This document shows positions 7,994-55,300 of a stretch of DNA of 64,000 bases, one piece after another. The translations under genes and the position numbers were made by a program. The DNA is from Selenomonas sp. AB3002. GTDB lineage: Bacteria > Bacillota > Negativicutes > Selenomonadales > Selenomonadaceae. How positions within the stretch are numbered: position 1 is the stretch's first letter; every line of letters starts with the position of its first letter. The notes under the pieces were generated by a model. That model was not told the origin of the DNA, did not search any database, and saw nothing but the letters and a program-made list of their open reading frames with translations. The stretch spans positions 62,001-126,000 of the forward strand of contig NZ_JNIO01000005.1 of assembly GCF_000702545.1 (NCBI RefSeq), read 5' to 3'.

Positions 7994-8082
7994 TTATAAT
8001 TCCTCATTTCCCCACATATAAATAGTCATATATCTTCGTGCGTAAAATAATTTTTACAATTTAGCCTTAACCAGTAATTTAA

Positions 8083-8760: not shown

Positions 8761-8761
8761 T

Positions 8762-12254: not shown

Positions 12255-12257
12255 AAC

Positions 12258-13937: not shown

Positions 13938-13950
13938 TTCTCTCTCCTAA

Positions 13951-15834: not shown

Positions 15835-15939
15835 CTTAGTTCTCTCCCCAATAATATACGCACATGAATCGATTGATTTGATAATTAAGTGTGCATCTTT
15901 AGGTCAGCATTCATTTAAGTCACTTAATTAATTTATCCG

Positions 15940-16512: not shown

Positions 16513-16517
16513 AGTAC

Positions 16518-21507: not shown

Positions 21508-24500
21508 CGCTCCTTCGCCTCCTTATCGTATTCTTCCATAATCTTCGGCACATCGTTTGGGGTAATCAGTGTCTCCCCCGCTATCAAAGCTCCATTGCGA
21601 GCTATATCGTCAATTATGTTTTGATAGATGCGAGCACTCCTGATTTCGCCCGTGTCCATATTGGGAATAGGAACAGCCAATCTGCCATAGAGTTCTCTAG
21701 CTCCCACAATGATCAACAGATTTTGCGCACGGGAGAAGGCAACATTGATTCGTTCAAAAGCTGCCACATGACGGCTAGCATTACCGTGTTTGGTATTACA
21801 GACTAAACTGGTGATAATAATCTGCTTTTCTTTGCCTTGGAACCGATCCACCGTATTTACATCCACCTTTAGCGCCTTGAGTTTGCCATGACTGCGCATA
21901 TCTTTTACGGCTTTTCTCAGATCGCCTACTTGAGAGCCATAGAAAGATATGACACCTACTGTTATGCCTGACTGCCCCATAGTGGCATAGGCATCGTTGA
22001 TTTTTGAGAGCATAGACAAAATTATGTACCTCTCGAAAATATTATGGAGCGAAGTGCTGCCGGGGTATCGGCTCTGCTCCATCAGCTTACCTTGCAACTT
22101 GGAGGAATCCACCCAATAAGCATGACAGTCGGGACGTAGAAAACTTTCACCCTTGTCAGTAGTAACTTTTAGCCCGTGGGCTTTTGTCTTGTTTTCAACC
22201 TCCATAACACCGCTTTCCAATTTTCCGTCATAAAAGCGATTAATGACTTTTTGAATGTCCGAGTGCATACGATATTGGGTAAGCAAGGAATGCTTGATAC
22301 GTTCGTCTGCATTCTCGAAATACTCACGGAACAGAGAGGATGTAACCATTGTGCGATAATTATTCAAATCCTCTTCGTGAAGTACCATTTCCGAACTGTT
22401 GTCATCGTCGTCATCACCTGTTTCGGCTTTTATTTCTTCCAGCAGTTCATTATAAGATTTTTCGTATTCATTGAACACTGGCGGTAACTGCCTGTGGTCG
22501 CCCACCAATATCGTCTTTCTCGCCCGCATTAGTGGTGGCAAGAGTTCCGGAGGAGTCGCCTTGCTGACCTCGTCGATAATGACCACATCGAAGTCCGGGA
22601 ATTTCTCGTCAAGATCCCTCATATTTGCCGTGCAAGTAATGCCCACCACATTGCAAGAGGAAATATAAATGTCTTCGTAGTATTCTTTGTCATACTTGGC
22701 GGTTTTAGGATCGCCCAACTGCTCAGTAAATTTTTCTAGTGTCCCCTGCCAAACCTGCCGAATGGAAGCATCATTATTCCACTCCTCCTTCAGCCGATTC
22801 ATCTCTGCTTCGATACAGGATTCGATTTCACCTCTTTCGCAGTTGTATTTAACGGAGAGTGTCTCACCCAATTTTTCTTTAATGGCGATTTCTTCCCGCT
22901 TACGCTGCATTTCTTCTTTTAACTGTTTGATTTGTCCCTTATAAGATTTTACTATCTCGGACAACGATTCAATATCCTTAGACTGAAAGGAATCAATGAC
23001 GTTGCCCATACTATTTAATGATTCTTGAATTGCGCTTTGATACGCCGACTCTATATCAGAGAGCAATTGCGCCATTTGGATCTGTCCTTCGGAAGACTGA
23101 ATTTTTGCTTTCTGCTCTTCGTTAAACAGAGCAAACTCCTCTGGAGACAACGTAAAGACTCCGCTTTCACCTAACTTTTCTCTTTCGTCACGCAGACAGT
23201 TTCGCTTATCTTTGAGCACTTTCCTTATCTCTGCGTCATCTTCCTCTGCCAACTGCTCGGTAATCTTTCTTATCTGCTCGTCGATATCCTGCATTTTCAA
23301 TTTTGCAATGTCTGCATCCGTATTTGCATTTTGAGCAACCGCTTGCAGCTTATCACGTAAGACAAAAAGTATGCCACAGGACGTAGCTATCCTACTTATC
23401 GATAAAACGGGTTCACGCCGTATCACATCCTCGCTTACGGAAGGTGCAAGAATAATGCCCTGCTCTGCAGCGGTACTAATAAGTCGCCAAAAGATAGGTG
23501 CAACTACGTTACCCATGGTCCCTGGAATAAAGAAATCTCCGCCGGAAATTTCGTTTCGCTCCGCCATCCCTTTGAAATTCATATATTGGCGTTTGGTATT
23601 TTCGTGTTCGCTACTTTCTTCTAATGCCTTTTGAAGATTGTTTTCTGCTAATGTAAGGTTGCGACGGCAATCTTCAAAATTTTGACTTTGCATCGTAAGC
23701 TCATGGTTCAAATATTCCAAATCAGCAGTAACGTGCTGTATATCACGTAGCTCCCTTTCGCAATTGCTATAGTCTTGACGATTTTTATTCCACGGTGTTA
23801 AGAACTTGTCCATAACCGATTGGCGTAAAGTCTCGTAATATGTGGAAAGCACCTTAGATGAGCCAAATTTGCTGCGCTCTTCATCACGATCCCTATCCCT
23901 TTCGCTTAGGCGGATAGCTCGAATTTCTGAGCGATTTGCCAGTCTGTCCAACGCATTGTCTACGGCATCATGGGATTGGGATGCCAGAAGGACTCGATTA
24001 CCCTGGCGAGCAAGCTGATATATGGCCTCTGCAATTACGGTTGTCTTGCCGGTTCCTGGGGGACCTTGTATTAAGCACAAATCCGGAGTTTCCAACATTT
24101 TGAATATGGCTTCACGCTGATTGAGATTATTGGCAACGCTGATATTGAGCCAGTTATCGCCTACGAGCTTTTCCCATTCCTCTCGGTCTTGGGGCTGAGG
24201 CAGCCTCGCCCGCGTCACATCGAAAATCCACATTGCCATATTTGGCGAACGGCAGTCACGATCCTGCTGTAAATCAGATACAGCTCTGTCTAGCCGTTTA
24301 AAGAGGGACAAATCCTTGATAACGAGTGGAGCAAGAAAACCTGTCTGCGAATAACGAGGAAGCAGTTGATTTTGCACATACTCGTCCCGCTCTTCATCCG
24401 TCATTTCTTCAACTTCATCATTATCAGGGATGGCGTACACCAATTCTATCTCGTAATGACCATCTACCTCGCGTCCTTCTTTGGAAAGACGGCGTATCTG

Positions 24501-25562
24501 ACTTCCTATCGGCTCGAATTTTTCATTCCAGCGATGACGTTCTTCGTTATACACGAAATTGCCATTCTCATCGGAATATTCCTTGTCGTCGTATGCTGCT
24601 AACTCACCGCGTTTCAACCACTTGGCTTCTGTTTCATATGAATCCTTATTCGGAAACTGCACCGTAAAGACTAGATTGCCGTCCTTATTTTCTATATTTA
24701 TATACCGTGCACCATGCATACGCTTTTTGACAATGGTGCGCCGCCACTTTATGTAATCTTTCCATTCCTTCAGCCGTTCTTTGGTGTGTTCGTTTAGTGA
24801 TGCAGCAGCATCCGCTAAATCGTACATAAAATTGCCGCCACTGCCTTTAACTCTTGAGGCATCGTCATAACGAGTAATTCTGCACGGCACCTCATAAGCA
24901 AGCAATTCTTCATCATATTGTTCTGTTACGCTATCAACCACAAAATAGTCGCCACTTACATAACCTTTGAAGAGCAATGTCTTATTTAAAGGGAGAATGT
25001 TAGACAAGTAATCGTAAGGAACTCGCTTGTATCTTATCGCTAATTTGAGATTTTTTGTACTACTATCATCAAAAGTGTAATTTCGGACGAAAGTATCTTG
25101 GGTTATACCGTCCCTGAATAAACTCTTGATAACTGCGTCGAAGAAATCTGCGGCAACGTAATCTTCCATTCCGAATCCTTGATATTTCTGAATTAGATCT
25201 TTCTGATCTTTCTGGAGATAATTGGAACGATTATTTGCTCTGATACACAAAGCATTAGGCGAATTTTGGTATTGGGTTATCTCGCTGTTTTCCGTAATAT
25301 TCTCTGCCACGCTTTTTTCTCCTTTTTCGATATTTGACGAATTTACCTTCCGGGATTCATGGTCATTATTCTGTCTGAAATTAATACTAGAGGCTGTCCG
25401 AATACTTCGTTGAGGATTGACGGACGTTTGTCGCCTACTACGAAATGGGATATCCGAATGGCCTTGACCGAATTCTTCTCTTAGGCCGTCTGCAATAGCT
25501 CTTTTGGCCTCTTTTTTGGCAATATCTACAATACCCCCTATTAATTCATCAAAAATCCCCAC
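21504..25562 (-). CDS. UPF1/Dna2-like superfamily 1 helicase
   Basis: 1352 residues. Walker A LIQGPPGTGKTTVIAEA is near residue 500 and is followed by motif Ia VLLASQSHDAVDNALDR. A long coiled-coil insertion (about residues 560-950) separates it from motif II VVIIDEVSKATPPELLP and motif III ILVGDHRQLPPVF. The C-terminal RecA half carries VDRFQGKEKQIIITS and NVAFSRAQNLLII. The N-terminal 480 residues include a beta-rich region but no nuclease motif I can see. GTG start preceded by AGGAGGTG. The domain order is that of AAA_11/AAA_12 helicases often found in defence islands. It unwinds nucleic acid; the substrate is unknown. Confidence 0.93.
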   Translation of the reverse strand: MGIFDELIGGIVDIAKKEAKRAIADGLREEFGQGHSDIPFRSRRQTSVNPQRSIRTASSINFRQNNDHESRKVNSSNIEKGEKSVAENITENSEITQYQNSPNALCIRANNRSNYLQKDQKDLIQKYQGFGMEDYVAADFFDAVIKSLFRDGITQDTFVRNYTFDDSSTKNLKLAIRYKRVPYDYLSNILPLNKTLLFKGYVSGDYFVVDSVTEQYDEELLAYEVPCRITRYDDASRVKGSGGNFMYDLADAAASLNEHTKERLKEWKDYIKWRRTIVKKRMHGARYINIENKDGNLVFTVQFPNKDSYETEAKWLKRGELAAYDDKEYSDENGNFVYNEERHRWNEKFEPIGSQIRRLSKEGREVDGHYEIELVYAIPDNDEVEEMTDEERDEYVQNQLLPRYSQTGFLAPLVIKDLSLFKRLDRAVSDLQQDRDCRSPNMAMWIFDVTRARLPQPQDREEWEKLVGDNWLNISVANNLNQREAIFKMLETPDLCLIQGPPGTGKTTVIAEAIYQLARQGNRVLLASQSHDAVDNALDRLANRSEIRAIRLSERDRDRDEERSKFGSSKVLSTYYETLRQSVMDKFLTPWNKNRQDYSNCERELRDIQHVTADLEYLNHELTMQSQNFEDCRRNLTLAENNLQKALEESSEHENTKRQYMNFKGMAERNEISGGDFFIPGTMGNVVAPIFWRLISTAAEQGIILAPSVSEDVIRREPVLSISRIATSCGILFVLRDKLQAVAQNANTDADIAKLKMQDIDEQIRKITEQLAEEDDAEIRKVLKDKRNCLRDEREKLGESGVFTLSPEEFALFNEEQKAKIQSSEGQIQMAQLLSDIESAYQSAIQESLNSMGNVIDSFQSKDIESLSEIVKSYKGQIKQLKEEMQRKREEIAIKEKLGETLSVKYNCERGEIESCIEAEMNRLKEEWNNDASIRQVWQGTLEKFTEQLGDPKTAKYDKEYYEDIYISSCNVVGITCTANMRDLDEKFPDFDVVIIDEVSKATPPELLPPLMRARKTILVGDHRQLPPVFNEYEKSYNELLEEIKAETGDDDDDNSSEMVLHEEDLNNYRTMVTSSLFREYFENADERIKHSLLTQYRMHSDIQKVINRFYDGKLESGVMEVENKTKAHGLKVTTDKGESFLRPDCHAYWVDSSKLQGKLMEQSRYPGSTSLHNIFERYIILSMLSKINDAYATMGQSGITVGVISFYGSQVGDLRKAVKDMRSHGKLKALKVDVNTVDRFQGKEKQIIITSLVCNTKHGNASRHVAAFERINVAFSRAQNLLIIVGARELYGRLAVPIPNMDTGEIRSARIYQNIIDDIARNGALIAGETLITPNDVPKIMEEYDKEAKER

Positions 25563-27502: not shown

Positions 27503-28423
27503 TTAATCGTCAGGTTCCAGAGGCACCTGGGGCAAACTTATACTCTGCCATACCTTATTCAAAAGCTTCCTGTCTGCCGACATCATTATCCCCAAGGAAA
27601 TGTCATCATGGCTACCCTTGGCAGACATTTCGGCCAATGCGTTGTTATTCAGCTCAGTAAAAAGAGCCTCGGCATTCTCTTTTGCCGCAGTTTCTACAAG
27701 GACTTTGTAAAAATTGAATAGATATTCTTCGTTCTGATAAGTCGGGAAGCAATCATCTACCCCATCGCTGGACAAGAAAACGGCCACAGGGTAGGTGCAG
27801 GATGTTGTATCTAGCGATAACACGGCATGACGGATTTTCTGGTCAGCATCATCCTCGGATAGGCTAGTTGTGACATTGAGATAGTTTTCCTCATCACGGG
27901 GAACCGGCAGCGTGAAGAGTCCGTCAGCGCATAGCACCACTGCAGAACCATCCCCTATCTGGAGCAAAAGCAGTTCGCTTTCTATAGCAATGGCAGCTAT
28001 CAATGTGGTACCGTAGGCGGTATAGAGGTACTTATCGCTTTCACACTGGTAGCGCTGTTTGTATTTCTCACTGACGAACTCATAACGGGTTTCTTTATCG
28101 TCCAACCCCCGTCTGCTGTCCCAGTCTTTCTTCACCGCCTCCCGCCAACTTTGCCATAACTTGTATTTGAAGTTCCTGATACCCTGATCACTGAAGGGAA
28201 GGTTTGTATCATACAAGAGGGGCAGAGCTTCGCAGAAAAGCGTGTCGATAGCAATACTTGCACCAATTTCACTTCTAAAACAGTCATTGGCACCGTGCCC
28301 ATCTGCCACAGCCACTATCTGCACACCGTTCTTTGTACAATTGCCAGAGCTGTCCTGACATCTGAAGCCGCGCTGTGCGTACTTCTGCCCCGGTCTGGAC
28401 AGGGAAAAGACTTTATATGGCAT
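27503..28423 (-). CDS. PP2C-type protein phosphatase (triad member)
   Basis: 306 residues. Metal-binding motifs are all present: CQDSSG, VAVADGHGAND (near residue 45), LLQIGDGSAVVL, FLSSDGVDDCF and SHDDISLG near the end. PP2C enzymes remove phosphate from Ser/Thr with two Mn or Mg ions. The start at ATG 28421-28423 has AAGGAGGGG upstream; a longer frame overlaps the VWA gene. With the VWA and kinase genes it makes the PP2C part of a TerY-P triad, where it would reverse the kinase's action. Confidence 0.95.
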   Translation of the reverse strand: MPYKVFSLSRPGQKYAQRGFRCQDSSGNCTKNGVQIVAVADGHGANDCFRSEIGASIAIDTLFCEALPLLYDTNLPFSDQGIRNFKYKLWQSWREAVKKDWDSRRGLDDKETRYEFVSEKYKQRYQCESDKYLYTAYGTTLIAAIAIESELLLLQIGDGSAVVLCADGLFTLPVPRDEENYLNVTTSLSEDDADQKIRHAVLSLDTTSCTYPVAVFLSSDGVDDCFPTYQNEEYLFNFYKVLVETAAKENAEALFTELNNNALAEMSAKGSHDDISLGIMMSADRKLLNKVWQSISLPQVPLEPDD

Positions 28424-28452
28424 ATTTCGCCCCTCCTTCCTTTTTTCCTGCC

Positions 28453-29181
28453 TTACCACTCTTCATCGGCAGAAGCTGCAGTCATCTCACCGCCTTGTGC
28501 TTCCAGCTCTTCAGCCAGGGCTGCTGTATTGTCATCAGGGGCATCCTCATTTGCATTGGTAGCAACCTTGCGGCTGGCAACCATGGAAGAGGTGATGGAA
28601 ACGAAGCGGATCATCTTCTTCAAATCCTCTGGAGAATTGGTGTGCAGTACAGTCTCTCTGTTCCCTGTGAATTCAGCCAGGATATTGTCATCTGCATCGC
28701 CATAGCCAATTGCTACTCTTACCGCCACCTTATACCAGTTGTTCTCCTTCAGCTTTGCTAGTGCCGACTGGTAATCATCAGTGGGAGCCCCGTCGGAGAG
28801 AAGGAACAGCACCGGGGCTACGGAACCACTGGCACGGCGCATGAAGCCAGTCTCTATGGAAAGTTTTTTGTTCAGTTCACGGAAAGCTGCTCCCATCTCG
28901 GTGGGCCCCATGGCGTCCATACCGTTCCAGGCTACATTCTGTGGGGAGACAAGCTTGTCCCCCGTCACCCAGTCTGTGCCCCCGGAAAAGCTCATGATAG
29001 CTGTCTTGATTTCCGCATCTGCATTCTCGTCATTCATGGCGCAAAGCTCGGGAAGCACTCCCTCAATGGCCGAATTAACTGCTCCAATAGGTGCACCATC
29101 CATGCTGCCGGAAGTGTCCACCAGAAAAATCACAGGGCACATACGTCTGGTCATCTCTACCTTATCCAAAATACCTGCCAT
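28453..29181 (-). CDS. terY: TerY-like von Willebrand A domain protein (triad member)
   Basis: 242 residues forming one VWA domain. The metal-ion-dependent adhesion site is complete: PVIFLVDTSGSMDG (DxSxS) near residue 18, the Thr in GGTDWVTG and the Asp in FLLSDGAPTDD. A short Ala/Glu-rich tail follows. TerY proteins are VWA proteins of tellurium-resistance-type stress systems. Here the gene lies between kinase (14 bp gap) and PP2C genes, the diagnostic triad order. The metal site suggests ligand or metal sensing, or a scaffold for the phospho-switch. Confidence 0.93.
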   Translation of the reverse strand: MAGILDKVEMTRRMCPVIFLVDTSGSMDGAPIGAVNSAIEGVLPELCAMNDENADAEIKTAIMSFSGGTDWVTGDKLVSPQNVAWNGMDAMGPTEMGAAFRELNKKLSIETGFMRRASGSVAPVLFLLSDGAPTDDYQSALAKLKENNWYKVAVRVAIGYGDADDNILAEFTGNRETVLHTNSPEDLKKMIRFVSITSSMVASRKVATNANEDAPDDNTAALAEELEAQGGEMTAASADEEW

Positions 29182-29194
29182 TGTTATATCCTCC

Positions 29195-30496
29195 TTAACC
29201 TTTCACTACTTCGCCAACTACACCATGACCGAAATCCAGCTTGAAGCCATCACCGATAACGGCCACATCCTCAGGATTCTTCACGGCCTGTGAGCCATCG
29301 GGAGCCGTAATCGTCCACTTGCAGCCCGATTCATTCTTCAGCCCAATCTTGCCCGGCTTCTCCAGCACATGAGCAGCCACCTTTGCCTCTTCCTTGGCAT
29401 TCTCGTACAAGTGATACTCGAAAAGCCTCGACCCACCTATGACGGGAACCAGAACCTCCGTGTTCGCCCGCTTGGGGAATTTGATATATCCGGCTGGCTT
29501 TATGCCTTTGCCACAGGCGGGACATGCGAACTCCCCTGTCTCGACAAAAACAGCCTCATGACAATGGGGACACTTCACCAGTGACGCTTTCAACCGCATC
29601 AGCACATGCTTCCACATGGCTTCCAGCAAACGACCGTTTCCCTCCTGCAAGCTTTCCTGGCTGAAGGAGGTTATGAACGCCTCCTGAACATAACTGGGGA
29701 AATAGGGCCACTTGGCTATAGCGTTGCGATGCAACCCAGGCACCGGACGATTGCTTTCATCCTTGGGGTCGAAGATGAACAAGGGGTTCTCCCCGAAGAA
29801 TCGCTTTTCGTATTTGCTGGTTAGTGCCGGTACATTGGTGCGTTTCCCCTCCAGCGGATGGTCACCCATGAGAAGGATGAAGAGTATCACTGCCAGGGAG
29901 AATCTATCCGTCAGCTTGTCCGGCTTCTTCTCCTTCCGTACCACCTCAGGAGCCATGTAACGCGCCTTGCCCAATATCCCTGATTCAAAGCCGTGACCAC
30001 CTACGTTGTCATTGTCACAGATCAGGACATGGCCATTGGCCGGATTGATGGAAAAGTTACCATCGTTCAAGTCCTGGTAATTGTAGCCCTTGTTGTGCAA
30101 ATCCATAAATGCAGTGACAATGTTCAATGCGGCATTCACCATGGCATCAATGCTTCTGAATTTCACCCTTGCCGTGATGAACTTGGAAAAACCCTCGTAG
30201 CCCTGCGGATAGAGTGGCATGATATAGCCAAAGGTGCCATTGCACCACTCTGTTAGTTCCTCTGGCCAGATAAAAGCAGGGGATGGGCTTCCTGCCTCGA
30301 TGTTCTGGTCTAGGTGCCGGTAGAAAGTCTCAGGATTTCCAAGTTTCTCACCAAAGTACCATTTGAGTGCCCTTACCTCGCCTGAATCCAAGCTAACCTT
30401 GTAGACAACGCCCTGTCCGCCAATGCCCAACTTGTCTGTGACGGTAATGCACCTGCCATCCCGCAAGAGGATCTGCTGATTTCTCTTCAGTTGCAT
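29195..30496 (-). CDS. Protein kinase with zinc ribbon and C-terminal beta domain (triad member)
   Basis: 433 residues. The kinase domain starts LGIGGQGVVYKVSLD (glycine loop) with ALKWYF giving the ATP-binding Lys. The catalytic loop is YNYQDLNDGNF, with Tyr-Gln in place of His-Arg, and the metal Asp motif is CDNDNVGG rather than DFG. ARYMAPEVV is the APE motif. Then come a zinc ribbon (CPHCHEAVFVETGEFACPAC) and a beta-rich domain resembling FHA (residues 350-433). This architecture fits kinases of the TerY-P triad. It should phosphorylate Ser/Thr on a partner. Activity is likely since the key Lys and both Asp are kept. Confidence 0.92.
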   Translation of the reverse strand: MQLKRNQQILLRDGRCITVTDKLGIGGQGVVYKVSLDSGEVRALKWYFGEKLGNPETFYRHLDQNIEAGSPSPAFIWPEELTEWCNGTFGYIMPLYPQGYEGFSKFITARVKFRSIDAMVNAALNIVTAFMDLHNKGYNYQDLNDGNFSINPANGHVLICDNDNVGGHGFESGILGKARYMAPEVVRKEKKPDKLTDRFSLAVILFILLMGDHPLEGKRTNVPALTSKYEKRFFGENPLFIFDPKDESNRPVPGLHRNAIAKWPYFPSYVQEAFITSFSQESLQEGNGRLLEAMWKHVLMRLKASLVKCPHCHEAVFVETGEFACPACGKGIKPAGYIKFPKRANTEVLVPVIGGSRLFEYHLYENAKEEAKVAAHVLEKPGKIGLKNESGCKWTITAPDGSQAVKNPEDVAVIGDGFKLDFGHGVVGEVVKG

Positions 30497-30508: not shown

Positions 30509-30946
30509 TTAAACAGATGGTTCTGGCTTAATGGAAGCCAGCATTTCATCCAACGCCTTGGTTAAGTCCTCCATGCTGCCCTTGAAGTTACGAACAGCAG
30601 TTTCACAATCTTCCTCTTCCTCGAGCTCACTACCGTTAAGAGCCTTTTCTTTGAGATCTGCAATTATTTCCTCCCCACGTTGCTTCAATGTAGCCTGCAG
30701 TTCTCTGATGGCGGATTCCACCTCTGTATAGACCTTCTCTCTATCCTCTTCAGTGTTACATCCTTCCATGGCCGCTTCCGCCTCTTGACGTATCTTATCT
30801 ACCAGAAGTTCCATGCCGTCGGCCTGTCCATCTTGACCCTCAGTGAAGTTGCCGCTCTTCTCACATTCCGATTCCAGCCATGCCGCCAAGGCCAAACCAG
30901 CGACCCCTCCTGCAGCCAGCAGCAATCCATTTTTCCACCAGGTCAT
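30509..30946 (-). CDS. One-pass membrane protein 1, partner of FtsZ-like 1
   Basis: 145 residues. A single transmembrane helix (GLLLAAGGVAGLALAAWLES) begins seven residues from the N-terminus, which reads MTWWKN. After an acidic linker, residues 45-135 form a helical, coiled-coil-like cytosolic domain (KVYTEVESAIRELQATLKQR). It is clearly paralogous to the protein at 38714-39184: the first 27 residues are nearly identical. The ATG at 30944-30946 has GGAGGAG upstream, in the tail of the FtsZ-like gene's downstream sequence. Its position right after an FtsZ homologue in both modules suggests a tether joining filament to membrane, like ZipA in cell division (analogy only). Confidence 0.8.
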   Translation of the reverse strand: MTWWKNGLLLAAGGVAGLALAAWLESECEKSGNFTEGQDGQADGMELLVDKIRQEAEAAMEGCNTEEDREKVYTEVESAIRELQATLKQRGEEIIADLKEKALNGSELEEEEDCETAVRNFKGSMEDLTKALDEMLASIKPEPSV

Positions 30947-30969
30947 ACCTATCTCCTCCAGTCTCTGCC

Positions 30970-32133
30970 TTACCACTCGTCAATATCATTATTTCCATCA
31001 CGCATTTCTTTAAGCGTTATCCGCAGTTCTCGCATAAGTTCTATACACTCTGCTACGGTGGTAGCAGGATTGTGCATTCTTTTTACACCTTCATCAATAA
31101 TTTGTTTGTAAATTTCTCTTTCGTGGTCGCTCAATTTTACGTCTTTCATTGCAAAATCAGGTTCTTTGAGCGTATCAAATCCAGAAGCAATTACTATTGC
31201 TTTGACTGTATCGCCAAGATCATTGTTCACCGTTGCTCCCCAAAGGATATTGCAGTTTCCATCAGTCATTTTCTGGATAACCTCGACCGCTTCGTTTATT
31301 TTAAACATGCTCAGTTTTTCTTCACTGCCAGTGATATTAATGAGAATAGATTTTGCATCTTTAATCTTTTCGTCAAACAAAGGAAATGAGGCAGCTTCTT
31401 CCGCAGCTTCCATCGCAGCCTTTTCTCCTATGCCAACACCAACACCTATAGCTGATGTACCTGCATTCTTCAAAATCAACTTCACATCAGCAAAATCCAA
31501 ATTGATTAGTCCAGGCTCTCCAATAAGATTTACAATGCTTTGTATTGCTTGGGCTATCAGCACATCAACAACTTCAAAGTTCGGTTTTTGATCGTATTCC
31601 TTCTTTTTTTCCTCCGTCAATGTACGATCGTTATATATGACAATAACTGCGTCTGCATATTCTTTCAGTTTTGCAATACTCTCTTCAGCCCGCTGTTTGC
31701 GCCGAGTTCCTTCAAAAGAGAAGGGAACGGTAACAATAGCTACGGTCAAGGCTCCTATATCATTTTTTGCATATGAGGCAACTACCGGGGCTGCACCTGA
31801 TCCAGTGCCACCACCAAGACCGGCGATGACAAATACCATGTCTGGCTGTCCAAGAGCCTCTATGATATCCTCACGGCTCTCCTTTGCAGCCATCTCACCA
31901 ATTATCGAGTTGCTACCAGTTCCCAATCCACGGGTGACCTTTTCTCCAATCTGTACTTTCGTTGAAGCAGTGGATTTCAAAAGAGCTTGGGCATCAGTGT
32001 TTATCGCAATAAAAGCCGCATCTTTAAGCCCCATCTTAATCAAACGATTTAAAGAATTACCACCACCTCCGCCTACACCTACAACTTTTACATGTGCAAA
32101 TTCATTGATGTTAGAATCGTTTAATTCAAACAT
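30970..32133 (-). CDS. FtsZ homologue 1 (canonical GTPase motifs)
   Basis: 387 residues. Nucleotide-binding motifs are intact: VVGVGGGGGNSLNRLI, IAINTDAQAL, and the tubulin signature LGGGTGSGAAPV (near residue 105). The catalytic T7 loop NLDFADVKLIL is also intact, so it should polymerise and hydrolyse GTP. After the globular core comes a 60-residue helical tail ending RDGNNDIDEW, without the D-I-P-x-F-L peptide that recruits FtsA in division FtsZ. I chose ATG 32131-32133 with AAGGAG 9 nt upstream. Being linked to the triad operon and not to division genes, it is likely a specialised filament of this system. Confidence 0.93.
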   Translation of the reverse strand: MFELNDSNINEFAHVKVVGVGGGGGNSLNRLIKMGLKDAAFIAINTDAQALLKSTASTKVQIGEKVTRGLGTGSNSIIGEMAAKESREDIIEALGQPDMVFVIAGLGGGTGSGAAPVVASYAKNDIGALTVAIVTVPFSFEGTRRKQRAEESIAKLKEYADAVIVIYNDRTLTEEKKKEYDQKPNFEVVDVLIAQAIQSIVNLIGEPGLINLDFADVKLILKNAGTSAIGVGVGIGEKAAMEAAEEAASFPLFDEKIKDAKSILINITGSEEKLSMFKINEAVEVIQKMTDGNCNILWGATVNNDLGDTVKAIVIASGFDTLKEPDFAMKDVKLSDHEREIYKQIIDEGVKRMHNPATTVAECIELMRELRITLKEMRDGNNDIDEW

Positions 32134-32299: not shown

Positions 32300-32704
32300 T
32301 CACGCACTAAGCCGGTTAGTCAAAGGTTTCGCTCCATTTGTGTATAGTATAATGTTGATTTCATCAACATCATGTTTTCCATCCTTGATATAGCTGGCTA
32401 TAATCATATCCTCTGCTATGCTCCGAGAAAGGATGTACCCGGCACGATATAACAAATCATTTGTTTCATCAATGGTGAGCTTCAAGGCTAAAGCTAGTGC
32501 CAGAGCAGTTTCCTTACGGGGACGGTAGTCATTCTTCTTTTTTATCTTGGAGAAGTGAGCCTTGGTTATGCCAGCTTTAGTGTAGACTTCGGCAGGCTTA
32601 ATCCCCTTTTGAGCAATTAGCTGCATCAGTTTTCCCGAAAATGTCAATTCCAACGTTTTAACGATGGTATTTAGAGTCTGCTGAATTTTGCTTGGGTGAG
32701 CCAT
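32300..32704 (-). CDS. HTH protein A (family usually found with macro-domain and stress genes)
   Basis: 134 residues. The core LTFSGKLMQLIAQKGIKPAE ... YTKAGITKAHFSKIKKKNDY ... RPRKETALALALALKLTI is a compact helix-turn-helix with the K-A-x-I-x-x-x-x-F-S-K-I recognition helix. It is clearly homologous to the gene at 41338-41874. Members are small regulators or adaptors in Firmicutes, often beside macro-domain proteins. The ATG at 32702-32704 is preceded by GGAGG. It lies upstream of the FtsZ-1 operon in the same direction and may regulate it. Specific target sites are unknown. Confidence 0.82.
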   Translation of the reverse strand: MAHPSKIQQTLNTIVKTLELTFSGKLMQLIAQKGIKPAEVYTKAGITKAHFSKIKKKNDYRPRKETALALALALKLTIDETNDLLYRAGYILSRSIAEDMIIASYIKDGKHDVDEINIILYTNGAKPLTNRLSA

Positions 32705-32764
32705 GATTACCGCCTCCATACTATAATGCTCATAAATCGTACGGATAGACATTATAAATATCAC

Positions 32765-38713: not shown

Positions 38714-39184
38714 TCACACTCCAGTGGGAGCAACACTCGGCTTCAGGGAGGCCAGCGTCTCATCCAGCGATTTGGTTAAGTCCTCCATGGAACTTTTGAA
38801 GTTGATGATGGCACCAGTGCTTTCATCTAAATCATCCAGGCTGCCGCCGGGCAGTGCCTGCTCCCGCAGATCAGCAATGATTTCTTCTCCCCGCTTCTCC
38901 AGAGTGGCTTGCAATTCCTTGATGGAGGCACTTACCTCAGCGTATACCTTTTCCCGTTGCTCATCAGTGGTGCATTCTTCCATTGCCCACTCAGCATCAC
39001 GGCGTACCTTCTCCACCAGAAGCTCCATGCCGTCTGTCTCTGTCTTGGGGGCTTTAATGCGAGGCCTTTCATCGTAATCCTCCTCATAGTCATTAGACTT
39101 GCATTCAGACTCCAGCCAAGCGGCCAATGCCAATCCGGCCACGCCACCTGCTGCCAACAAAAGCCCATTTTTCCACCATGTCAT
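38714..39184 (-). CDS. One-pass membrane protein 2, paralogue of protein 1
   Basis: 156 residues. The N-terminus MTWWKNGLLLAAGG and the glycine/alanine-rich transmembrane helix that follows are nearly identical to the protein at 30509-30946. The middle is a more charged, variable linker (KSNDYEEDYDERPRIKAP), then the same coiled-coil-like domain (EKVYAEVSASIKELQATLEK) and a short C-terminal tail. ATG with GGAGGAG upstream. It follows FtsZ-like 2 by 104 bp, so the FtsZ-plus-tether pair is duplicated as a unit. Confidence 0.78.
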   Translation of the reverse strand: MTWWKNGLLLAAGGVAGLALAAWLESECKSNDYEEDYDERPRIKAPKTETDGMELLVEKVRRDAEWAMEECTTDEQREKVYAEVSASIKELQATLEKRGEEIIADLREQALPGGSLDDLDESTGAIINFKSSMEDLTKSLDETLASLKPSVAPTGV

Positions 39185-39288: not shown

Positions 39289-40257
39289 TCATTTCGATAG
39301 AACAAGATTCATCTTCTCTGTAGACTCAAAACCAGATGCTATTATAGTTGCTTTTACAGTATCACCGAGACTGTTATCTATAGCGGCACCCCAAATTATG
39401 TTGACGTTATCAGTAGTCATTTTATGAATTGTCTCAATTGCTTCGTTTATTTCAAACATGCTTAGTTTATTATCGGAACCTGTTATATTGATAATGATGG
39501 ATTTGGCATCTTTGATACTCTCATCAAACATTGTAAGTGCAGCTGCCTCCGTCACTGCTTCCATTGATGCATTTTCCCCTGTGCCAGTACCTATGCCTAC
39601 AGCTGCTGTGCTTGCATTCCTTAAAATCAATTGCACATCTGCAAAATCAAGGTTAATAAGCTCTGGCTCTATAAGGAGACTTTCTATGCTTTGAATCACT
39701 TCAGCTATAAGCTTATCAATCTCTAAGCTAAGATTAGAAGTATCTTCGTTATCCTTTTTAACTGAAAGAATTCGGTCACTATTTATGGCAATAACTGCAT
39801 CTGCACATCCCTTAAGCTTTGAAAGCCTCTCTTTAACTTTGCGTTTCCGAAATGGGTCTTCATCTGTACCTGTAAATTTGACAATGGCAACAGTCAAAGC
39901 TTTTGTATCTTTTACCAATGAGGTTATCATTGGTGTAATTTCCGAACCCGTATTGTCACCTAAGTCAGCTATGATAAATGTCATATCTGAATTATCAATT
40001 GCCGCCAAAATATCATCATGACTTTCCTTGGCAGACTGCACATAAGCAAATCCACTATCAATCTTTTCTCCAAGCTGTAATCTCGTGGGAGCAAGTGACC
40101 TCGAAAGACCTTTAGCATCCGTATTTATAGCTATGAATTTCACACCTTTAATCCCCATATTTATAAAACGATTCAAAGAAATGCAGCCATCATCGCCAAT
40201 GCCAATGACTTGTATATAAGCCAAGGTATCCAAGCCGTAATCATCTAGCTCAAACAT
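39289..40257 (-). CDS. FtsZ homologue 2 with degenerate nucleotide-binding motifs
   Basis: 322 residues. Overall alignment to FtsZ homologue 1 is clear (IAINTDAKGL, NLDFADVQLILRNAST, GENASMEAV), including the catalytic T7 loop NLDFADV. The GTP-binding tubulin signature GGGTGSG has become GDNTGSE (LGDNTGSEITPM). The glycine-rich first loop is VIGIGDDGCISLNR instead of VVGVGGGGGN. So it likely binds GTP poorly, while its T7 loop could still serve a neighbour's GTP site or cap a filament of homologue 1. It also lacks the C-terminal tail. ATG 40255-40257, AAGGAGG 6 nt upstream. Confidence 0.88.
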   Translation of the reverse strand: MFELDDYGLDTLAYIQVIGIGDDGCISLNRFINMGIKGVKFIAINTDAKGLSRSLAPTRLQLGEKIDSGFAYVQSAKESHDDILAAIDNSDMTFIIADLGDNTGSEITPMITSLVKDTKALTVAIVKFTGTDEDPFRKRKVKERLSKLKGCADAVIAINSDRILSVKKDNEDTSNLSLEIDKLIAEVIQSIESLLIEPELINLDFADVQLILRNASTAAVGIGTGTGENASMEAVTEAAALTMFDESIKDAKSIIINITGSDNKLSMFEINEAIETIHKMTTDNVNIIWGAAIDNSLGDTVKATIIASGFESTEKMNLVLSK

Positions 40258-40291
40258 ATTATTATCCTCCTTATACATGGTAGGCTAATCT

Positions 40292-41194
40292 TTATACTCC
40301 TAATGAGTACGCCACATACTTTTTACGACACTCTCTGCAAAATTTTCTTAATTTATCATTTTTGATAACAGCACTGATATCGTTTAAATGATTACTTATG
40401 CGATAATATATTATCCCTTCCTGGTTGTTATCGATAAAGTTTTTTACATCCCTTAGTATTTGTCTGTATAAAAGAACCGCCTTTATTACTTCAGGATTGT
40501 AACCGATTCTGGCATTTCTTTCAGCAGATAAATCTACATTATCAATTCCTAAATATGAATCAGCTAAAGCTATTACTGAACTGCAGTAGTTATCAAAACA
40601 TTCATCTCGAAGCAATATTAAATCTTTATTATCAACATCTAAGTCAATATGACGAATGTGTTTTATTATAAACCGATATGCTTTTGTCGCTAATGTGATA
40701 TCTTTAATTTCATTTGCTTTTTTTGCGGCCAATTTATACCAATACAATCCTTTTTCAACGTCAAATTCTCTTGTTACATATGCCACACCAATATATGCTG
40801 TGTCCTTTGGACACTTGAAATCACGTAATATATACGAATTACCTACCTCCAGCATAGCCTTAATATTCCCTTTTTCAGCAGCTTTCTCAAACCAATCAAG
40901 TGCTTTATAGCCATCTATTTCTACCGCATATCCATAGGAATATGCACGTCCTAAACGGTACATACCATTATCATTCCCTAATTTTGCCGCCTCTCTAAAG
41001 TATTTTAACGATATTTCAAGGTCACGTTTGCAAGCAAATCCCTCATTGTATATTTCTCCCAAGCATACCATTGCTTCGCTACTGCCCATTGCTGCAGCCG
41101 TTTTATAAGCTTCCATGGCTACACCATAATCTCTGTTGTCCAGAGAAACCTTTCCCTTAATCAACAGTTCATCAATTTGCTTGTCCTTATCCAT
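40292..41194 (-). CDS. Sel1-repeat (TPR-like) protein
   Basis: 300 residues. About four Sel1-type helical repeats occur between residues 25 and 135, with repeat hallmarks AMVCLGEIYNEGFACKRDLE, ISLKYFREAAKLGNDNGMYR, LGRAYSYGYAVEIDGYKALD and WFEKAAEKGNIKAMLEVGNS. The remainder is helical. Sel1 proteins mediate protein-protein contacts in signalling and stress complexes. ATG with TTAGGAGGATT upstream. It is the first gene of the FtsZ-2 operon, 34 bp before the FtsZ gene, so it probably scaffolds or targets that protein. Confidence 0.88.
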   Translation of the reverse strand: MDKDKQIDELLIKGKVSLDNRDYGVAMEAYKTAAAMGSSEAMVCLGEIYNEGFACKRDLEISLKYFREAAKLGNDNGMYRLGRAYSYGYAVEIDGYKALDWFEKAAEKGNIKAMLEVGNSYILRDFKCPKDTAYIGVAYVTREFDVEKGLYWYKLAAKKANEIKDITLATKAYRFIIKHIRHIDLDVDNKDLILLRDECFDNYCSSVIALADSYLGIDNVDLSAERNARIGYNPEVIKAVLLYRQILRDVKNFIDNNQEGIIYYRISNHLNDISAVIKNDKLRKFCRECRKKYVAYSLGV

Positions 41195-41337: not shown

Positions 41338-41874
41338 TTATTCTGTTTTTGACTTACGCCAGTTTGTTAGTGGTTTGAAGCCCCTCAAATCCAACTGTAT
41401 GTTGAGATCATCAATGCTATATATCCTGTTTTTGATAAAATATTCCACGATAAGGTCGCTCTTGCTACTGTGTGACAGCGTATATCCGGCTCTTCCTATC
41501 AGATCTGTTGTCTCTTCCAGATTCAGATGCAGAGCTATGGCAAAGGCTAATGCAGTTTCTTTAGACGGATGGTAGTCATCATCCCCTTTGATTTTAGAGA
41601 AATGGGATTTTGTAAGACCAGCTTTGGTATATATATCTGCCGGTTTCCTTCCTTTCTCTGCTATTAGGCGAAGTAGTTTCTCAGAAAAACTAAGCTCTAA
41701 TTTCTTCATCAGGAAATCCAATGCCCACTTGGCACCACTTATACGGCTGCCTCCTGTGGAATACATTGGCCCCATGGATTCAAAAAAATCCTTTATCTTT
41801 ATACTGCTTCGATGAAGGTGCTTTTTTATATAGGCATCTACTTTTGCGGTAATATCTAAATTCTCTTTGACCAT
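41338..41874 (-). CDS. HTH protein B, paralogue of HTH protein A
   Basis: 178 residues. Residues 70-145 match HTH protein A closely (LSFSEKLLRLIAEKGRKPAD, YTKAGLTKSHFSKIKGDDDY, HPSKETALAFAIALHLNLEE). An extra 65-residue N-terminal region (HLHRSSIKIKDFFESMGPMY) is unique to this copy. The C-terminus SLDDLNIQLD-like RGFKPLTNW corresponds to GAKPLTNRL in protein A. ATG 41872-41874 with GGGAGGGT upstream. It precedes the second FtsZ module just as HTH-A precedes the first, which suggests regulation of each. Confidence 0.82.
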   Translation of the reverse strand: MVKENLDITAKVDAYIKKHLHRSSIKIKDFFESMGPMYSTGGSRISGAKWALDFLMKKLELSFSEKLLRLIAEKGRKPADIYTKAGLTKSHFSKIKGDDDYHPSKETALAFAIALHLNLEETTDLIGRAGYTLSHSSKSDLIVEYFIKNRIYSIDDLNIQLDLRGFKPLTNWRKSKTE

Positions 41875-41956
41875 GGTTACACCCTCCCAGACAGGCTGAA
41901 AACCCGCCTGACAATACGCCAAAGCGGGCTTACATCATACGCTCTTTTCTGCTATA

Positions 41957-44156: not shown

Positions 44157-44564
44157 TCAATACAATTCTTTTTCTAAATCACCAACATTTTCAGCTATAT
44201 ACTCTATTTTCCCTGTTTCCATTCTATATAAAACAAATTTATTATTGTCACCATAATTTACACAAATCATGTCACCTGCAGGATCCATGCCTATAGGGAA
44301 CAACCCATCCTTTTTTAAATTGTCTCTAAGTTCTCCTTCATATATTTTAAATATACATTCGGAATCATCAGCGTTATATGAGAATAAACCATCAAATACA
44401 TATTCTCTACCTTTATCTGTATCAAATAAACTTTTTTCAGGTCTACCTCCATTATGACAGACTATAAAATCAATCACATCTCGAGGAATAGTTATATGCT
44501 CCTTTTCTAAAAATGTAACTACTGCATTAGGATTTATTAGCGGCTCAACATATTTCCACTTCAT
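44157..44564 (-). CDS. SMI1/KNR4 (SUKH)-family immunity protein
   Basis: 135 residues. The pattern FLEKEHITIPRDVIDFIVCH, NGGRPEKSLFDTDKGREY, GLFPIGMDPAGDMICVNY and the YVLYRMETGKIEYIAENV-like ending matches SUKH superfamily proteins. These neutralise nuclease toxins of contact-dependent systems. It begins 13 bp after the toxin stop, with GAGGTGATG, so it follows the toxin in the same transcript. It should protect the host from the WHH nuclease encoded upstream. Confidence 0.9.
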   Translation of the reverse strand: MKWKYVEPLINPNAVVTFLEKEHITIPRDVIDFIVCHNGGRPEKSLFDTDKGREYVFDGLFSYNADDSECIFKIYEGELRDNLKKDGLFPIGMDPAGDMICVNYGDNNKFVLYRMETGKIEYIAENVGDLEKELY

Positions 44565-44576
44565 GGTAACATCACC

Positions 44577-45890
44577 TCATCTATATTCACTTCCACCGCC
44601 CCAGATACTTCTTCCTCCAGTATGAGGGGTTTTGCTGTGTATTTCAGTAGGAACCAGTTGTAGTAATCCAGACTCTTCATTATGGTGCCAAGTATATCCG
44701 CTTGGTCTGTCTCCATTTGCAATTTGCTCCAATTGTTTTGCATTGAATTTACTACGCAGAACATGGTTACTTTTTACAGCTTCCTGCAATGCCTTATTGC
44801 ATGCATTAAATTGAACAGCATCTGTCGCATTATACATTTCTAGTGGAATTTCCGTATCATATATACTTGGAAAATCAGGAAACACCCCTTCTATCTTTAT
44901 ACCACTTGGAGTTACAACAGTACGTTTTAGATATTTCACTCCAGTGTCAGGGTGAACCTGATTTACCAAATCCTCACGTATAGTAGTTATATGCTCAACA
45001 TTAGATTTTTTATTCACTGCGGTAGAACCTGTGTTTTTCTTTACATTATTTGGGACACTTGTGGCATTATTATATGACTTAGCACCTCTTTCTACTATTT
45101 TTTCAGCTTGTCCTGTTCCATTATCAAATATATCTACAAGTTTTGCTCCTTCCTTAACTGCCGCTTTAGTTCCATTTGAACCTTCTTCCATTAAGCTTTC
45201 TGCTGCTTTTGCCCCCTCAGATGATATTGATTTTGTTACTTTCCCACCTTTGCCTGTAACTGATTCTACAGCATTTGTTATCACTTTTCCTTCATTGGAG
45301 AGGATTCGCCTTTCTGTACTTGATACCAATCTACTTTCCACTGCCAACGCAGAACTTTCTATCCTTGATAAAACCATTACTTCCGGACTCAGTATAGGAA
45401 TAAAGGCCAATATAGGTCCCATTTTAACAAGTACAAATGTAAAAACAGCTGTAATAGTACTAGCTGCGACAAACCTGGCTGGTAACGGCATATCTCCACC
45501 TATAGCAAATGCTAGTCCAAATACCCCTATAATCAAAAAGCTGGTAATTAATAGGAATATTATTTCTGCTATAGCTGCATATAAATCTGCAACATATAAT
45601 CCGATTAAAACTATTCCAAGAATGCAACTCGCTACTGCGACACCACCTTCCATTTCACCACTTAATCCAACTACTATAAATAGTATTCCAACGATTAGTA
45701 GAGCTATTTCTATCAAATGTCCTACTGCACTTAATAACATATCGAAAAGATATCCTATCATTTCATTTACCAACATAGCAATATCAAATATTGTTGTTAC
45801 TATCCCAAATAATATCATCCCAATAATACTAATAACAATCAGTACACCTATACTCTCTATTACTCGCATTGTCTTCCACACACCTTTCAT
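44577..45890 (-). CDS. Polymorphic toxin with WHH-type nuclease domain
   Basis: 437 residues. The N-terminal 170 contain four or five hydrophobic segments (VLIVISIIGMILFGIVTTIF, HLIEIALLIVGILFIVVGL, AEIIFLLITSFLIIGVFGL), a membrane-spanning delivery module. A Ser/Gly/Lys-rich repeat-like linker follows. The last 70 residues carry GYTWHHNEESGLLQLVPTEI and HSKTPHTGGRSIWGGG, the WHH motif of the HNH/Endo VII nuclease family. The ATG immediately follows the stop of a 34-codon ORF, so translation is coupled. The cognate SUKH immunity gene lies downstream. It likely kills neighbouring cells or competing mobile elements. Confidence 0.9.
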   Translation of the reverse strand: MKGVWKTMRVIESIGVLIVISIIGMILFGIVTTIFDIAMLVNEMIGYLFDMLLSAVGHLIEIALLIVGILFIVVGLSGEMEGGVAVASCILGIVLIGLYVADLYAAIAEIIFLLITSFLIIGVFGLAFAIGGDMPLPARFVAASTITAVFTFVLVKMGPILAFIPILSPEVMVLSRIESSALAVESRLVSSTERRILSNEGKVITNAVESVTGKGGKVTKSISSEGAKAAESLMEEGSNGTKAAVKEGAKLVDIFDNGTGQAEKIVERGAKSYNNATSVPNNVKKNTGSTAVNKKSNVEHITTIREDLVNQVHPDTGVKYLKRTVVTPSGIKIEGVFPDFPSIYDTEIPLEMYNATDAVQFNACNKALQEAVKSNHVLRSKFNAKQLEQIANGDRPSGYTWHHNEESGLLQLVPTEIHSKTPHTGGRSIWGGGSEYR

Positions 45891-52341: not shown

Positions 52342-55300
52342 TTATCTGCCAATAGCCATAGCCCTATTTTCGTTATTTTCCCCTACCAGTCGCTTCACAT
52401 CGACTACTTTTATCATGCTGGGAGACAGTTCCTCGATGGTCTTGTAGATGTCTTCGAGGTCGTAGCCCTTCGCTATCATGACATCGGCTATCCCCTTGTC
52501 TGTGCTCATGGCATTATCCGGGGAATAGGCGTTGTCGTTTCTGGTCAGGGCTTCGGCTGCCCGGAAGAGGAATGTCCTTTCGATGTCGCTCTTGCCCTCC
52601 AGTTTGGTGAAGTCCATATGGCCATCCTTGTCCACCAGCTTCAGGATGCGGCTCCGGCGTACATCACCCTCGATGTCCTTGGCCTCAGTGAGGCCTTTTT
52701 CCTTGGCGGCCAGTATCATGTCTATTTCTTCTGACCTTGCCTTGAGCCGCTGGAATTCATCTTCCCTGGGGTAGGGAGCCTCCAAGGAATTCTTGGCCAC
52801 CTCAAGGTTGTGCTTCAAGGTTTCCAGATTTTCCTTTTCTTCCGTGATTTTCTCGTCCACCTTCTTGCCAATGTCCTTGATAGCCGTCAAGATACGTTTC
52901 TTGCTACCGTAGATGTCGATGCGGAAATCAGTGGCATTAACCGCCTGAATGTAGGGGCAGTTGTTCATCCAGTCAAAAGCCGTTGAAAGCTTGAATCCCT
53001 TATATTCCCCGGTGAAATTCTTGGTAGCCGTGGGGGCAAGGGCTTTGCTCAAGGCCTCCACGGCCTCTTTCTCGTCCAGATACTTCACGCCATTGATGGT
53101 CATGGCAAAGGCTTCCTGTGGCTCCCCATCCAGCCCCGTTGTCTTGTGGGTGTTGTTCTGCCACGTTTCCTTGTTCTTCAGCTGGGCCTCCAAGTGGCTC
53201 TCACTCTGGGCAATACGGTTTGGCAAGTCTATCTTTACCTGTTTTGCCATACTCTCACGGTTTTTCAGGTAATTGCCCTTGTCCAGCTTCAAGCGGTTAT
53301 AGGCGTTATCAACGTCCATTTTTTCCTTAATCAGGGGATCACCTGCCGCCAGTGCCTTGATTTCAGCAGCACTCAAAACTACCTCATCACAATCCTCAGC
53401 CTCTCGTGTGGGGACTTTGGAGGACATAATCTGCGAGATAAACCGTTGCTTATTCTCTATGAGCTGCCACATGTAGGCATCAAAGGTGCCTTTGGTAACA
53501 TACCTGAATACCTTCACATCCTTGTTCTCATTGCCCCGGCGGACAATACGCCCCATACGTTGCTCAAGGTCAGCTGGCCGCCATGGCACATCGAGGTCAT
53601 GTGTGGCAATGAGCTTGTCCTGCACATTGGTGCCCACTCCAAGGTTGTCCGTGCGGCCTAAGAGTACCCGCACCTTCCCAGCTCTGACCTTGGCAAAAAG
53701 CTGTTCCTTGGCTTCATCGTCCTTGGCTTCCTGCACAAAGGCGATTTCTTCCCTTGGCACACCTGCCTCCACCAGTTTGTTGCGGATATCATCGTAGACA
53801 TTGAACTTATGTGGCTCTTTCTTATTGGGCACTGACTGGTCGCAGAAAATCAACTGAGTGGATTTCTTGTCCCCGGTGGCCTTGTAGATGTCCAAGACAT
53901 TCTTGATGCACTTGTTGACCTTGCTGTTGGGATTATCTGGCAGGGTTGGGTCGATGATGCGTTCATCCAAGGCCAGACTGCGGCCTTCATTGGTAATTTT
54001 CAGCATATTATCTTCGCTGGGGTCAATACCACCATTGCGGATAGATTCAGCCCGGATAGCCAGCTCGTTCACAAGGTCTGACTGAGTTTCCGTAGGCTCT
54101 ATCTGGTCTACCACCATTTCGCAGTTGGGCACATCCAAATCAAGCATGTCGGCAGTCTTGATATCGGCGGTCATTTTGAATATGGCCATCAACTCCGGCA
54201 GATTGTAGAACCGGGAGAATCTGGTCTTTTCCGTAAAGCCCTTACCCTCCGGCTTCAGCTCAAAACCAGTTACTGCCTCCCCGAAGGTGGCTGCCCAGTC
54301 ATCAAAGCTGTGGATGCCCGCATCCTTCAGCACATTGGGCTGGAGGAATTTCTGCATGGTGTAGAGTTCCGTCATGGAGTTTGACACTGGGGTGCCGGTG
54401 GCAAAGACGAGACCTTTGTAATTGGTTTTCTCGTTGATGTACTGGCACTTGTCCATCAGGTCATTGGCACGGACAGAATCAGAGTTGCCGATACCAGCCA
54501 CGTTGTTCATCTTGGTCATAACGTAGAGATTCTTGAAGTTATGAGCCTCATCCACATAAAGCCTGTCAATGCCCAACTCTTCGAAGTAGATAGGCATGTC
54601 ATCCTTGTTCTTCTCCACTTCATCCTGTGCCTTTTCCAGCCGTTCCCTGGCTTTTTTCAGCATCAGCTCCACCTGCTTGATGGAATACTTGGAATCATCA
54701 CTTCCCCGAAGTTCATCCAGCATATCCTCATATTCCCCTATACGCTGCTCCTGCAGGGCAATCCGGCGTTCCGGGGTAATGGGAATACGCTCAAACTGGG
54801 TATATCCCATGATAACCGCATCCCAATTCTGGGTAGCTACCTTGGCCACAAAAACCTTGCGATTTTTCTTCTCGAAGTCGCTTGGCTGGGCAACAAGGAT
54901 TTTGGCCTTGGGGTAAAGCTTCATAAAAGCTGCCCCAGTCTGCTCGGTGAGGTGCTTTGGTACCACCATCAGGGCTTTCTGTGAAAGCCCCAGCCGCTTG
55001 GCTTCCATGGCAGAGGCTATCATTTCATAAGTCTTGCCCGCACCTACCGCATGAGCAAAGAGAGTATTGCCGCCGTAGAGCGTGTGGGCGATGGCTGCTT
55101 TCTGATGGTCTTTCAGTTCGATGGCCGGGTTCATGCCGGGGAAGCGGAGGTATTCGCCGCTATACTCCCGGGGCACGATGGCATTGAACTTCTCATTGTA
55201 GAGGGCTGTCACTCTGTCGGCTCTCTGCTCATCCTTCATGATCCACTCGGCAAAAGCCCGCTTCAAGTCCTCCTGCTTCATCTGAGCTGCAGAAGTAGCC

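Follow-up and report, generated by a model that had tools for sequence, protein, structure and literature searches.

What could a bacterium do with an FtsZ that has lost its pocket for guanosine triphosphate (GTP) but kept the loop that serves the pocket of a neighbour? In FtsZ the T7 loop of one subunit completes the GTP site of the next. The question is posed by a stretch of 64,000 nucleotides from Selenomonas sp. AB3002 (the window: positions 62,001 to 126,000 of contig NZ_JNIO01000005.1), part of a 140-kb contig in a genome totalling 3.67 Mb, which encodes two FtsZ paralogues: homologue 1 (H1), which is intact, and homologue 2 (H2), in which T7 is kept and the pocket is lost. In H2 the pocket is destroyed (T1, T3, T4, T5) and the T7 face kept; the same asymmetry recurs in other pocket-damaged FtsZ derivatives of Selenomonadaceae, and on balance the sequence comparisons lead us to favour H2 being a one-faced FtsZ, which would dock through T7 on the GTP face of intact FtsZ and either cap the GTP-exposed filament end or sequester monomers.

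Four genes of this genome lie above the Pfam Tubulin cut-off: H1, H2 and two ordinary FtsZs on another contig. H2, in its form of 329 amino acids (aa), exceeds both relevant cut-offs, with 63.8 bits for Tubulin and 70.8 bits for FtsZ_C. A ribosome site, AAGGAGG, precedes its ATG at 40257 and shows the originally predicted gene limits, 39289-40257, to be exact; the alternative ATG at 40278, at which the open reading frame list starts the gene, has no ribosome site in the preceding 22 bases. Aligned with the three other FtsZ proteins of the genome, H2 has GIGDDGCI at T1, where housekeeping FtsZ has GVGGGGSN and H1 has GVGGGGGN, and GDNTGSE at T4, where they have GGGTGTG and GGGTGSG, respectively; T3 carries a 7-residue deletion, the PFSFEG of T5 has become TGTDED, and the ND of T6 has become SD. 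The T7 sequence NLDFADV is identical in H2, H1 and housekeeping FtsZ. The original prediction had T4 and the first glycine loop lost and T7 kept, and the alignment confirms it on each point (GDNTGSE, GDDGCI, NLDFADV): neither the FtsZ signature GGGTG(S/T)G nor a glycine-rich T1 is found in H2, and the equivalents of both T7 aspartates, D210 and D213, are present. Also absent is the C-terminal conserved peptide, via which ordinary FtsZ is anchored; H2 stops 12 residues past the core-closing GF, whereas housekeeping FtsZ extends to ...FIDIPVWMRKK.

H2 was modelled by AlphaFold2 as a single chain, on an alignment whose 23 rows come entirely from the window and the fetched loci. The model has a mean predicted local distance difference test score (pLDDT) of 87.6 and a predicted template modelling score (pTM) of 0.87, and the 50 Foldseek matches listed for it are FtsZ structures, the first with a TM-score of 0.85 on the query. 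Pfam, model and Foldseek thus all place a Tubulin/FtsZ fold with an FtsZ_C domain in H2. FtsZ itself (PF00091 plus PF12327) provides the top sequence and structure matches and has the fold, the T7 loop and the C-terminal domain in common with H2; the differences lie in the lost T1, T3, T4 and T5 of the GTP site and in the missing C-terminal peptide. To judge from the model, the loss in H2 concerns the pocket and not the fold.

The two halves of H2 have changed unequally. Where H1 and the two ordinary FtsZs all have the same residue, H2 shares it at 34 of 66 N-domain sites and at 30 of 36 sites between helix H7 and the core end (Fisher p 0.0014). Over the N-domain H2 is 45% identical to H1 and over the C-part 67%; for H1 and housekeeping FtsZ the order is inverted (59% and 50%). 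These counts and this contrast together imply that the nucleotide domain of H2 ran free and that its T7 side did not. The two homologues, 7 kb apart, form a sister pair in the C-part tree (support 100/99); the ratio of nonsynonymous to synonymous change (dN/dS) between them is 0.205, with synonymous changes near saturation.

H2 is not the only such protein. A search of 60 relatives with it returned ordinary FtsZs and, in addition, many matches confined to the second half of FtsZ. Where these were read, most proved to be complete genes of about 240-280 aa, which we call half-FtsZs. In 189 family genomes a model built on six half-FtsZ sequences matched 13 times over at least 230 of its 244 positions, exclusively in genera g1 and g16, and a 12-row model run against 300 genomes of the class gave 12 near-full-length matches among the matches listed, in the same two genera. 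Alignment of 32 FtsZ-type proteins left 25 FtsZ-derived proteins of Selenomonadaceae with a lost or damaged pocket, in 15 clusters and many of them half-FtsZs, once H1, two ordinary FtsZs, L033 (with intact T4), L041 (without T7) and two fragments (L052 and the 110-aa piece of L049) were excluded; L094_16342 and L104 were counted among the 25 despite partly kept pockets. Loci L032, L036, L038, L039, L042, L044 and L047 stayed outside the alignment as second copies of a gene already included, and L034, L037 and L046 as pieces of ordinary FtsZ. The 25 are not a census, since shorter FtsZ-like matches from other genera, for example g12, lie outside the collection. One half-FtsZ (genome G185, locus L101) is identical to a named S. 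ruminantium HD4 record; its AlphaFold2 model (pLDDT 87.9, with FtsZ as top Foldseek matches) is that of a trimmed FtsZ, with a reduced N-domain, the long helix, T7 and the C-domain.

Filament structures of S. aureus FtsZ have named the residues on both sides of the subunit interface (PMC8936486). Those of the GTP side are mostly gone from the 25 proteins (N25 kept in 2, N44 in 1, D46 in 3, Q48 in none, R67 in 2, G72 in none, R143 in 3; S. aureus/B. subtilis numbering). On the T7 side D210 is kept in 24/25, D213 in 22/25, D97 in 17/25 and N208 in 12/25. Setting aside L094_16342 and L104 lowers the GTP-side counts to 0-2 and leaves D97 in 15/23, N208 in 10/23, D210 in 22/23 and D213 in 21/23. 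From many of the 25 the whole region of several GTP-side residues is missing, which is itself loss of the GTP face and makes the GTP-side counts non-independent. With weighting over the 15 clusters, the T7 aspartates take ranks 2 and 6 in the 132 sites of the C-part; if only the 23 of these that are invariant in 19 intact FtsZs are ranked (H1 and the second FtsZ are in this intact set, L023 is not), they come first and third. D210 is retained in 13 of the 14 clusters other than that of H2. D97 lies in the N-domain and yet belongs to the T7 side, forming a salt bridge with R67 of the next subunit (PMC8936486).

Nor do the 25 appear to descend from one event. In the C-part tree the pocket-damaged proteins are scattered over several places, and at least 6 changes of pocket state are required; a single clade of all 25 is rejected by the approximately unbiased test (p-AU 0.0046, with a tool warning on long branches), and L045, its pocket lost, groups with L033, its T4 intact (81/83). 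Retention of the T7-side residues, loss of most of the GTP side and rejection of a single origin thus lend comparative weight to the original suggestion that a T7-only FtsZ could dock on a neighbour's GTP site. Half-FtsZ genes are moreover under constraint in the two clusters tested, with dN/dS of 0.13-0.43 over 8 pairs (synonymous distance above 1 in three pairs); no close relative of H2 is available for a selection test. This bears on whether H2 is merely a decaying duplicate, losing function with T7 left by chance or recency. Its N-domain does evolve fast, and a chromosomal locus closely related to part of the window (L029, with a von Willebrand factor A (vWA) protein 97.5% identical) holds only an FtsZ remnant, adjoining a transposase gene judged by eye to be IS30-type. 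Decay nevertheless seems very improbable to us, given an intact frame, a good ribosome site and a constrained C-part in H2 itself, D210 in nearly all other clusters and purifying selection in both clusters tested. A viral origin was considered too and is unsupported: scans of viral contigs with H2, sensitive to close relatives only, and with the alignment of the small membrane protein encoded next to H2 found no relative, and the plasmid and phage matches listed are FtsZ-type proteins at no more than 38% identity.

Other arrangements of FtsZ parts occur among the fetched loci. L041 (G004:C174, 4913-6076, plus strand) is the reverse case, an N-domain with part of T4 and T5 kept and the T7 motif lost; towards its C-terminus no FtsZ C-domain can be aligned. 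L094 (G181) encodes both a half-FtsZ with intact T7 (9152-9907, plus strand) and a longer FtsZ-like protein (16342-17331, plus strand) with the pocket largely kept and cysteine for the second T7 aspartate; the pair possibly offers complementary faces. A second type of stub, T7 and C-domain with nearly no N-domain, is present in L031 (G000:C8, 2621-3370, minus strand), L040 and L049, with L048 grouped beside them; the L031 and L040 stubs have a common C-terminal extension, and L049 also holds the 110-aa piece. Genome G180 carries, on contigs C11, C20, C22 and C46, five FtsZ GTPase-domain genes and two half-FtsZs.

How might H2 act? It is predicted not to load GTP and hence not to accept the T7 loop of a next subunit, and its own T7 face would dock on the GTP-loaded face of intact FtsZ, whether housekeeping FtsZ, H1 or both. 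A subunit with no pocket that docks by T7 would be terminal at the GTP-exposed end of the filament. Since growth is argued to occur at the T7-exposed end (PMC8936486), the capped end would not be the growing one. Alternatively, H2 might hold GTP-FtsZ monomers in dimers, for free FtsZ with its GTP face covered would be unable to join the growing end. Since H2 lacks the C-terminal peptide, the neighbouring small protein may keep it at the membrane, and the outcome would be local control of division filaments by cap, seed or sequestration, an FtsZ derivative with a broken top acting as a mild regulator rather than a poison.

The original prediction named H1 as the specific partner. If H2 were a subunit that caps or seeds H1 filaments only, leaving housekeeping FtsZ untouched, one could point to the sister relationship and proximity of the two genes, to the regulator and membrane protein that each has of its own, and to the GTP face of H1, on which all 7 of the 7 residues examined are kept. 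That face is equally intact (7/7) in housekeeping FtsZ, however, and H1 and H2 stand in separate gene runs. Moreover, near-full-length half-FtsZ matches occur in 11 genomes besides that of the window, and in 7 of these the only intact FtsZs are the two ordinary ones (G002, G005, G020, G183, G184, G185 and G195; more than two FtsZ GTPase-domain genes are present in G003, G004, G180 and G181). The claim is thus not borne out: we regard an H1-only partnership as improbable, and housekeeping FtsZ as at least as plausible a partner for H2 as H1.

Several observations weigh against a one-faced H2. At residue level its loss of the pocket is incomplete, for it retains N44, D46 and R143 of the 7 GTP-side residues, so that weak nucleotide binding is conceivable. 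The T7 side is not immaculate in the collection: D213 is replaced in 3/25 (E in L031_2621, C in L094_16342, T in L132), D210 in 1/25 (S in L141), and N208, which contacts the neighbour, survives in just 12. Because the 25 were found mostly by C-part similarity, some C-part retention is built in; the informative items are the ranking within the C-part and the retention of D97. For the shortest proteins the alignment is uncertain in the N-domain. The backbone of the C-part tree is weak, with 21/37 inner branches open and several branches long, and the 15 clusters are not all independent. Association with the membrane protein is likewise partial. Its gene lies within 10 kb on the same contig in 9 of the 13 near-full-length half-FtsZ matches of the family (with a stop in its frame in the case of G005) and is not nearby in the other 4. 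In a subset of membrane-protein loci, 53 stretches examined of which 49 hold the membrane protein and four (L131, L132, L133 and L136) were fetched for their half-FtsZ instead, an FtsZ-like match is present in 13/49, one of them only the L029 remnant, and 36/49 have none; FtsZ-like proteins are therefore one of several kinds of neighbour of the membrane protein.

The main rival starts from the same residues. H2 and the half-FtsZs might be decoys or baits that offer the T7/H10 face to FtsZ inhibitors (SulA, MciZ, MinC, perhaps phage proteins), absorbing them or sensing them for a defence response, and a face kept as an inhibitor's target would show the same conservation as one kept for docking. 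There are precedents: FtsZ and a phage inhibitor of FtsZ jointly activate a CapRel immune protein (PMC13423816), and inactive enzyme copies in vWA conflict systems have been proposed to be decoys (PMC7159879). The H1 cassette, for its part, continues into genes for a kinase, a vWA protein and PP2C, with a helicase gene matching MkoA farther along. On the other hand, the retention of D97, an N-domain residue engaged in the salt bridge with R67, fits FtsZ-FtsZ contact better, and PADLOC gave no match for H2, its membrane protein or the Sel1 protein. We judge the decoy unlikely, though less so than an H1-only partnership, and continue to prefer docking on intact FtsZ. A PADLOC match of H1 to KwaB is weak (E 2e-4) and was set aside.

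Comparison with described systems places H2 apart from each. The protein regulators SulA, MciZ and MinC cap or sequester FtsZ by binding its T7-side face (PMC11938149), whereas the predicted target of a one-faced FtsZ, itself an FtsZ derivative, is the opposite, GTP-side face. The toxin CbtA inhibits FtsZ at the H6/H7 loop, a site other than that of SulA, MciZ and MinC (PMC5624674), and is, like them, a protein inhibitor, but a small toxin not derived from FtsZ. The families FtsZl1 and FtsZl2 were identified by a diverged FtsZ domain in which the GGGTG(S/T)G loop is kept (PMC2875224). They are likewise extra FtsZ-like genes, and FtsZl1 operons, like the H1 cassette, contain genes for vWA proteins and kinases, but in H2 it is that loop that is lost and T7 that is kept. 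Among vWA conflict systems, inactive MinD/ParA and FtsK effectors are predicted and FtsZ/tubulin is a rare effector (PMC7159879); inactive copies of division proteins beside vWA genes resemble the present case, and a T7-only FtsZ was not found described in the sections of that account available to us. The nearest described case is the FtsZ of Nitrosopumilus maritimus, which is without the conserved GTP motif and does not polymerise in yeast (PMC3684127); there the T7 loop seems to be missing as well, unlike in H2. Among the matches listed from open-licence literature on motif-less FtsZ homologues, FtsZ-like families, vWA-PP2C-kinase-FtsZ sets, FtsZ caps, Selenomonas FtsZ and plant ARC3, the parts available gave no description of a class of pocket-less FtsZs that keep T7. 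If the proposal is right, these proteins would be natural FtsZ-made agents on the GTP-side face, opposite to the target of SulA, MciZ and MinC, and a natural tool with which to ask whether division is regulated by end-capping alone and which of the two filament ends controls treadmilling; that one face has been lost repeatedly and the other retained is a natural experiment on the FtsZ interface. Named strains exist for testing the idea: half-FtsZs are encoded in S. ruminantium HD4 and in G020, one contig of which is shared with strain ATCC 12561.

Gamma-tubulin is a specialised member of its family that sits at the filament end and binds GTP. The placement predicted for H2 would be similar, but in H2 the GTP pocket has been lost. 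A broader and distinctly more tentative proposal is that Selenomonadaceae have repeatedly made one-faced terminal subunits—pocket-less H2, half-FtsZs, T7 and C-domain stubs—which would cap or seed GTP-exposed ends under membrane-anchored signalling cassettes, as a bacterial answer to end-specific tubulins.

Features of the window around H2 and H1, with the motifs of H2 (positions in the window)
Feature	Coordinates	Strand	Basis
H2 (322 aa), FtsZ paralogue whose GTP pocket is lost	39289..40257	-	open reading frame, ribosome site, Pfam Tubulin and FtsZ_C, AlphaFold2 model
Degenerate T1 loop of H2 (GDDGCI)	40180..40197	-	alignment
Degenerate T4 signature of H2 (GDNTGSE)	39940..39960	-	alignment
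Intact T7 loop of H2 (NLDFADV)	39634..39654	-	alignment and interface table
H1, intact FtsZ paralogue, 387 aa, sister of H2	30970..32133	-	Pfam, alignment, tree
Small protein downstream of H2, one N-terminal hydrophobic stretch	38714..39184	-	called a membrane protein by eye; Pfam gave no match
Small membrane protein downstream of H1	30509..30949	-	relative of the one after H2
Sel1-repeat protein directly upstream of H2	40292..41194	-	Pfam Sel1
Putative regulator upstream of the Sel1 gene, H2 side	41338..41922	-	no Pfam match of its own
Cro/C1-type helix-turn-helix protein upstream of H1	32300..32764	-	Pfam HTH_26
Protein kinase downstream of H1, sub-threshold zinc-ribbon match	29195..30496	-	Pfam Pkinase
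vWA-domain protein	28453..29181	-	Pfam VWA
PP2C phosphatase	27503..28459	-	Pfam PP2C_2

The surroundings of H1 and H2 resemble each other. Their small membrane proteins are 65% identical, and the two regulators are related, both matching the same genes of other loci. The membrane protein was found in 46/189 genomes of the family and in 35/300 of the class, all 35 of them Selenomonadaceae; scanning genome contigs for it gave 8 named loci, in Selenomonas, Schwartzia and Anaerovibrio, of which 4 are sequence-identical to stretches of G003, G004, G020 and G185. Its other neighbours are the kinase-vWA-PP2C set, Sel1 proteins, a metallophosphatase and DUF1232. The set has also been reported beside GTPase conflict systems (PMC7159879), and L029 is a close relative of it. 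The C-terminal tail of H1 was tried as a marker of membrane-protein partners and rejected, its only other occurrence in the fetched loci being in one 277-aa protein of L030 (2478-3311, minus strand), which lies near a membrane-protein gene, is 37% identical to the tail over 51 aa and has no match to the rest of H1.

Elsewhere in the window, the helicase gene matching MkoA in PADLOC (21504-25562, E 9.5e-104) is large and forms one gene run with those for the kinase, the vWA protein and PP2C; an AAA ATPase at 16518-18356 matches PDC-M37B in PADLOC. A gene for a colicin-DNase/WHH-type nuclease followed by a SUKH-family immunity-like gene occupies 44157-45890, and a protein of 2571 aa with SNF2-type helicase matches and a weak match to methyltransferase is encoded at 52342-60057. 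The stretch from 8001 to 16000, of low G+C content (28-35%), carries HAD, SIS and carbamoyltransferase genes, adjoins an integrase gene (6082-7086) and looks acquired.
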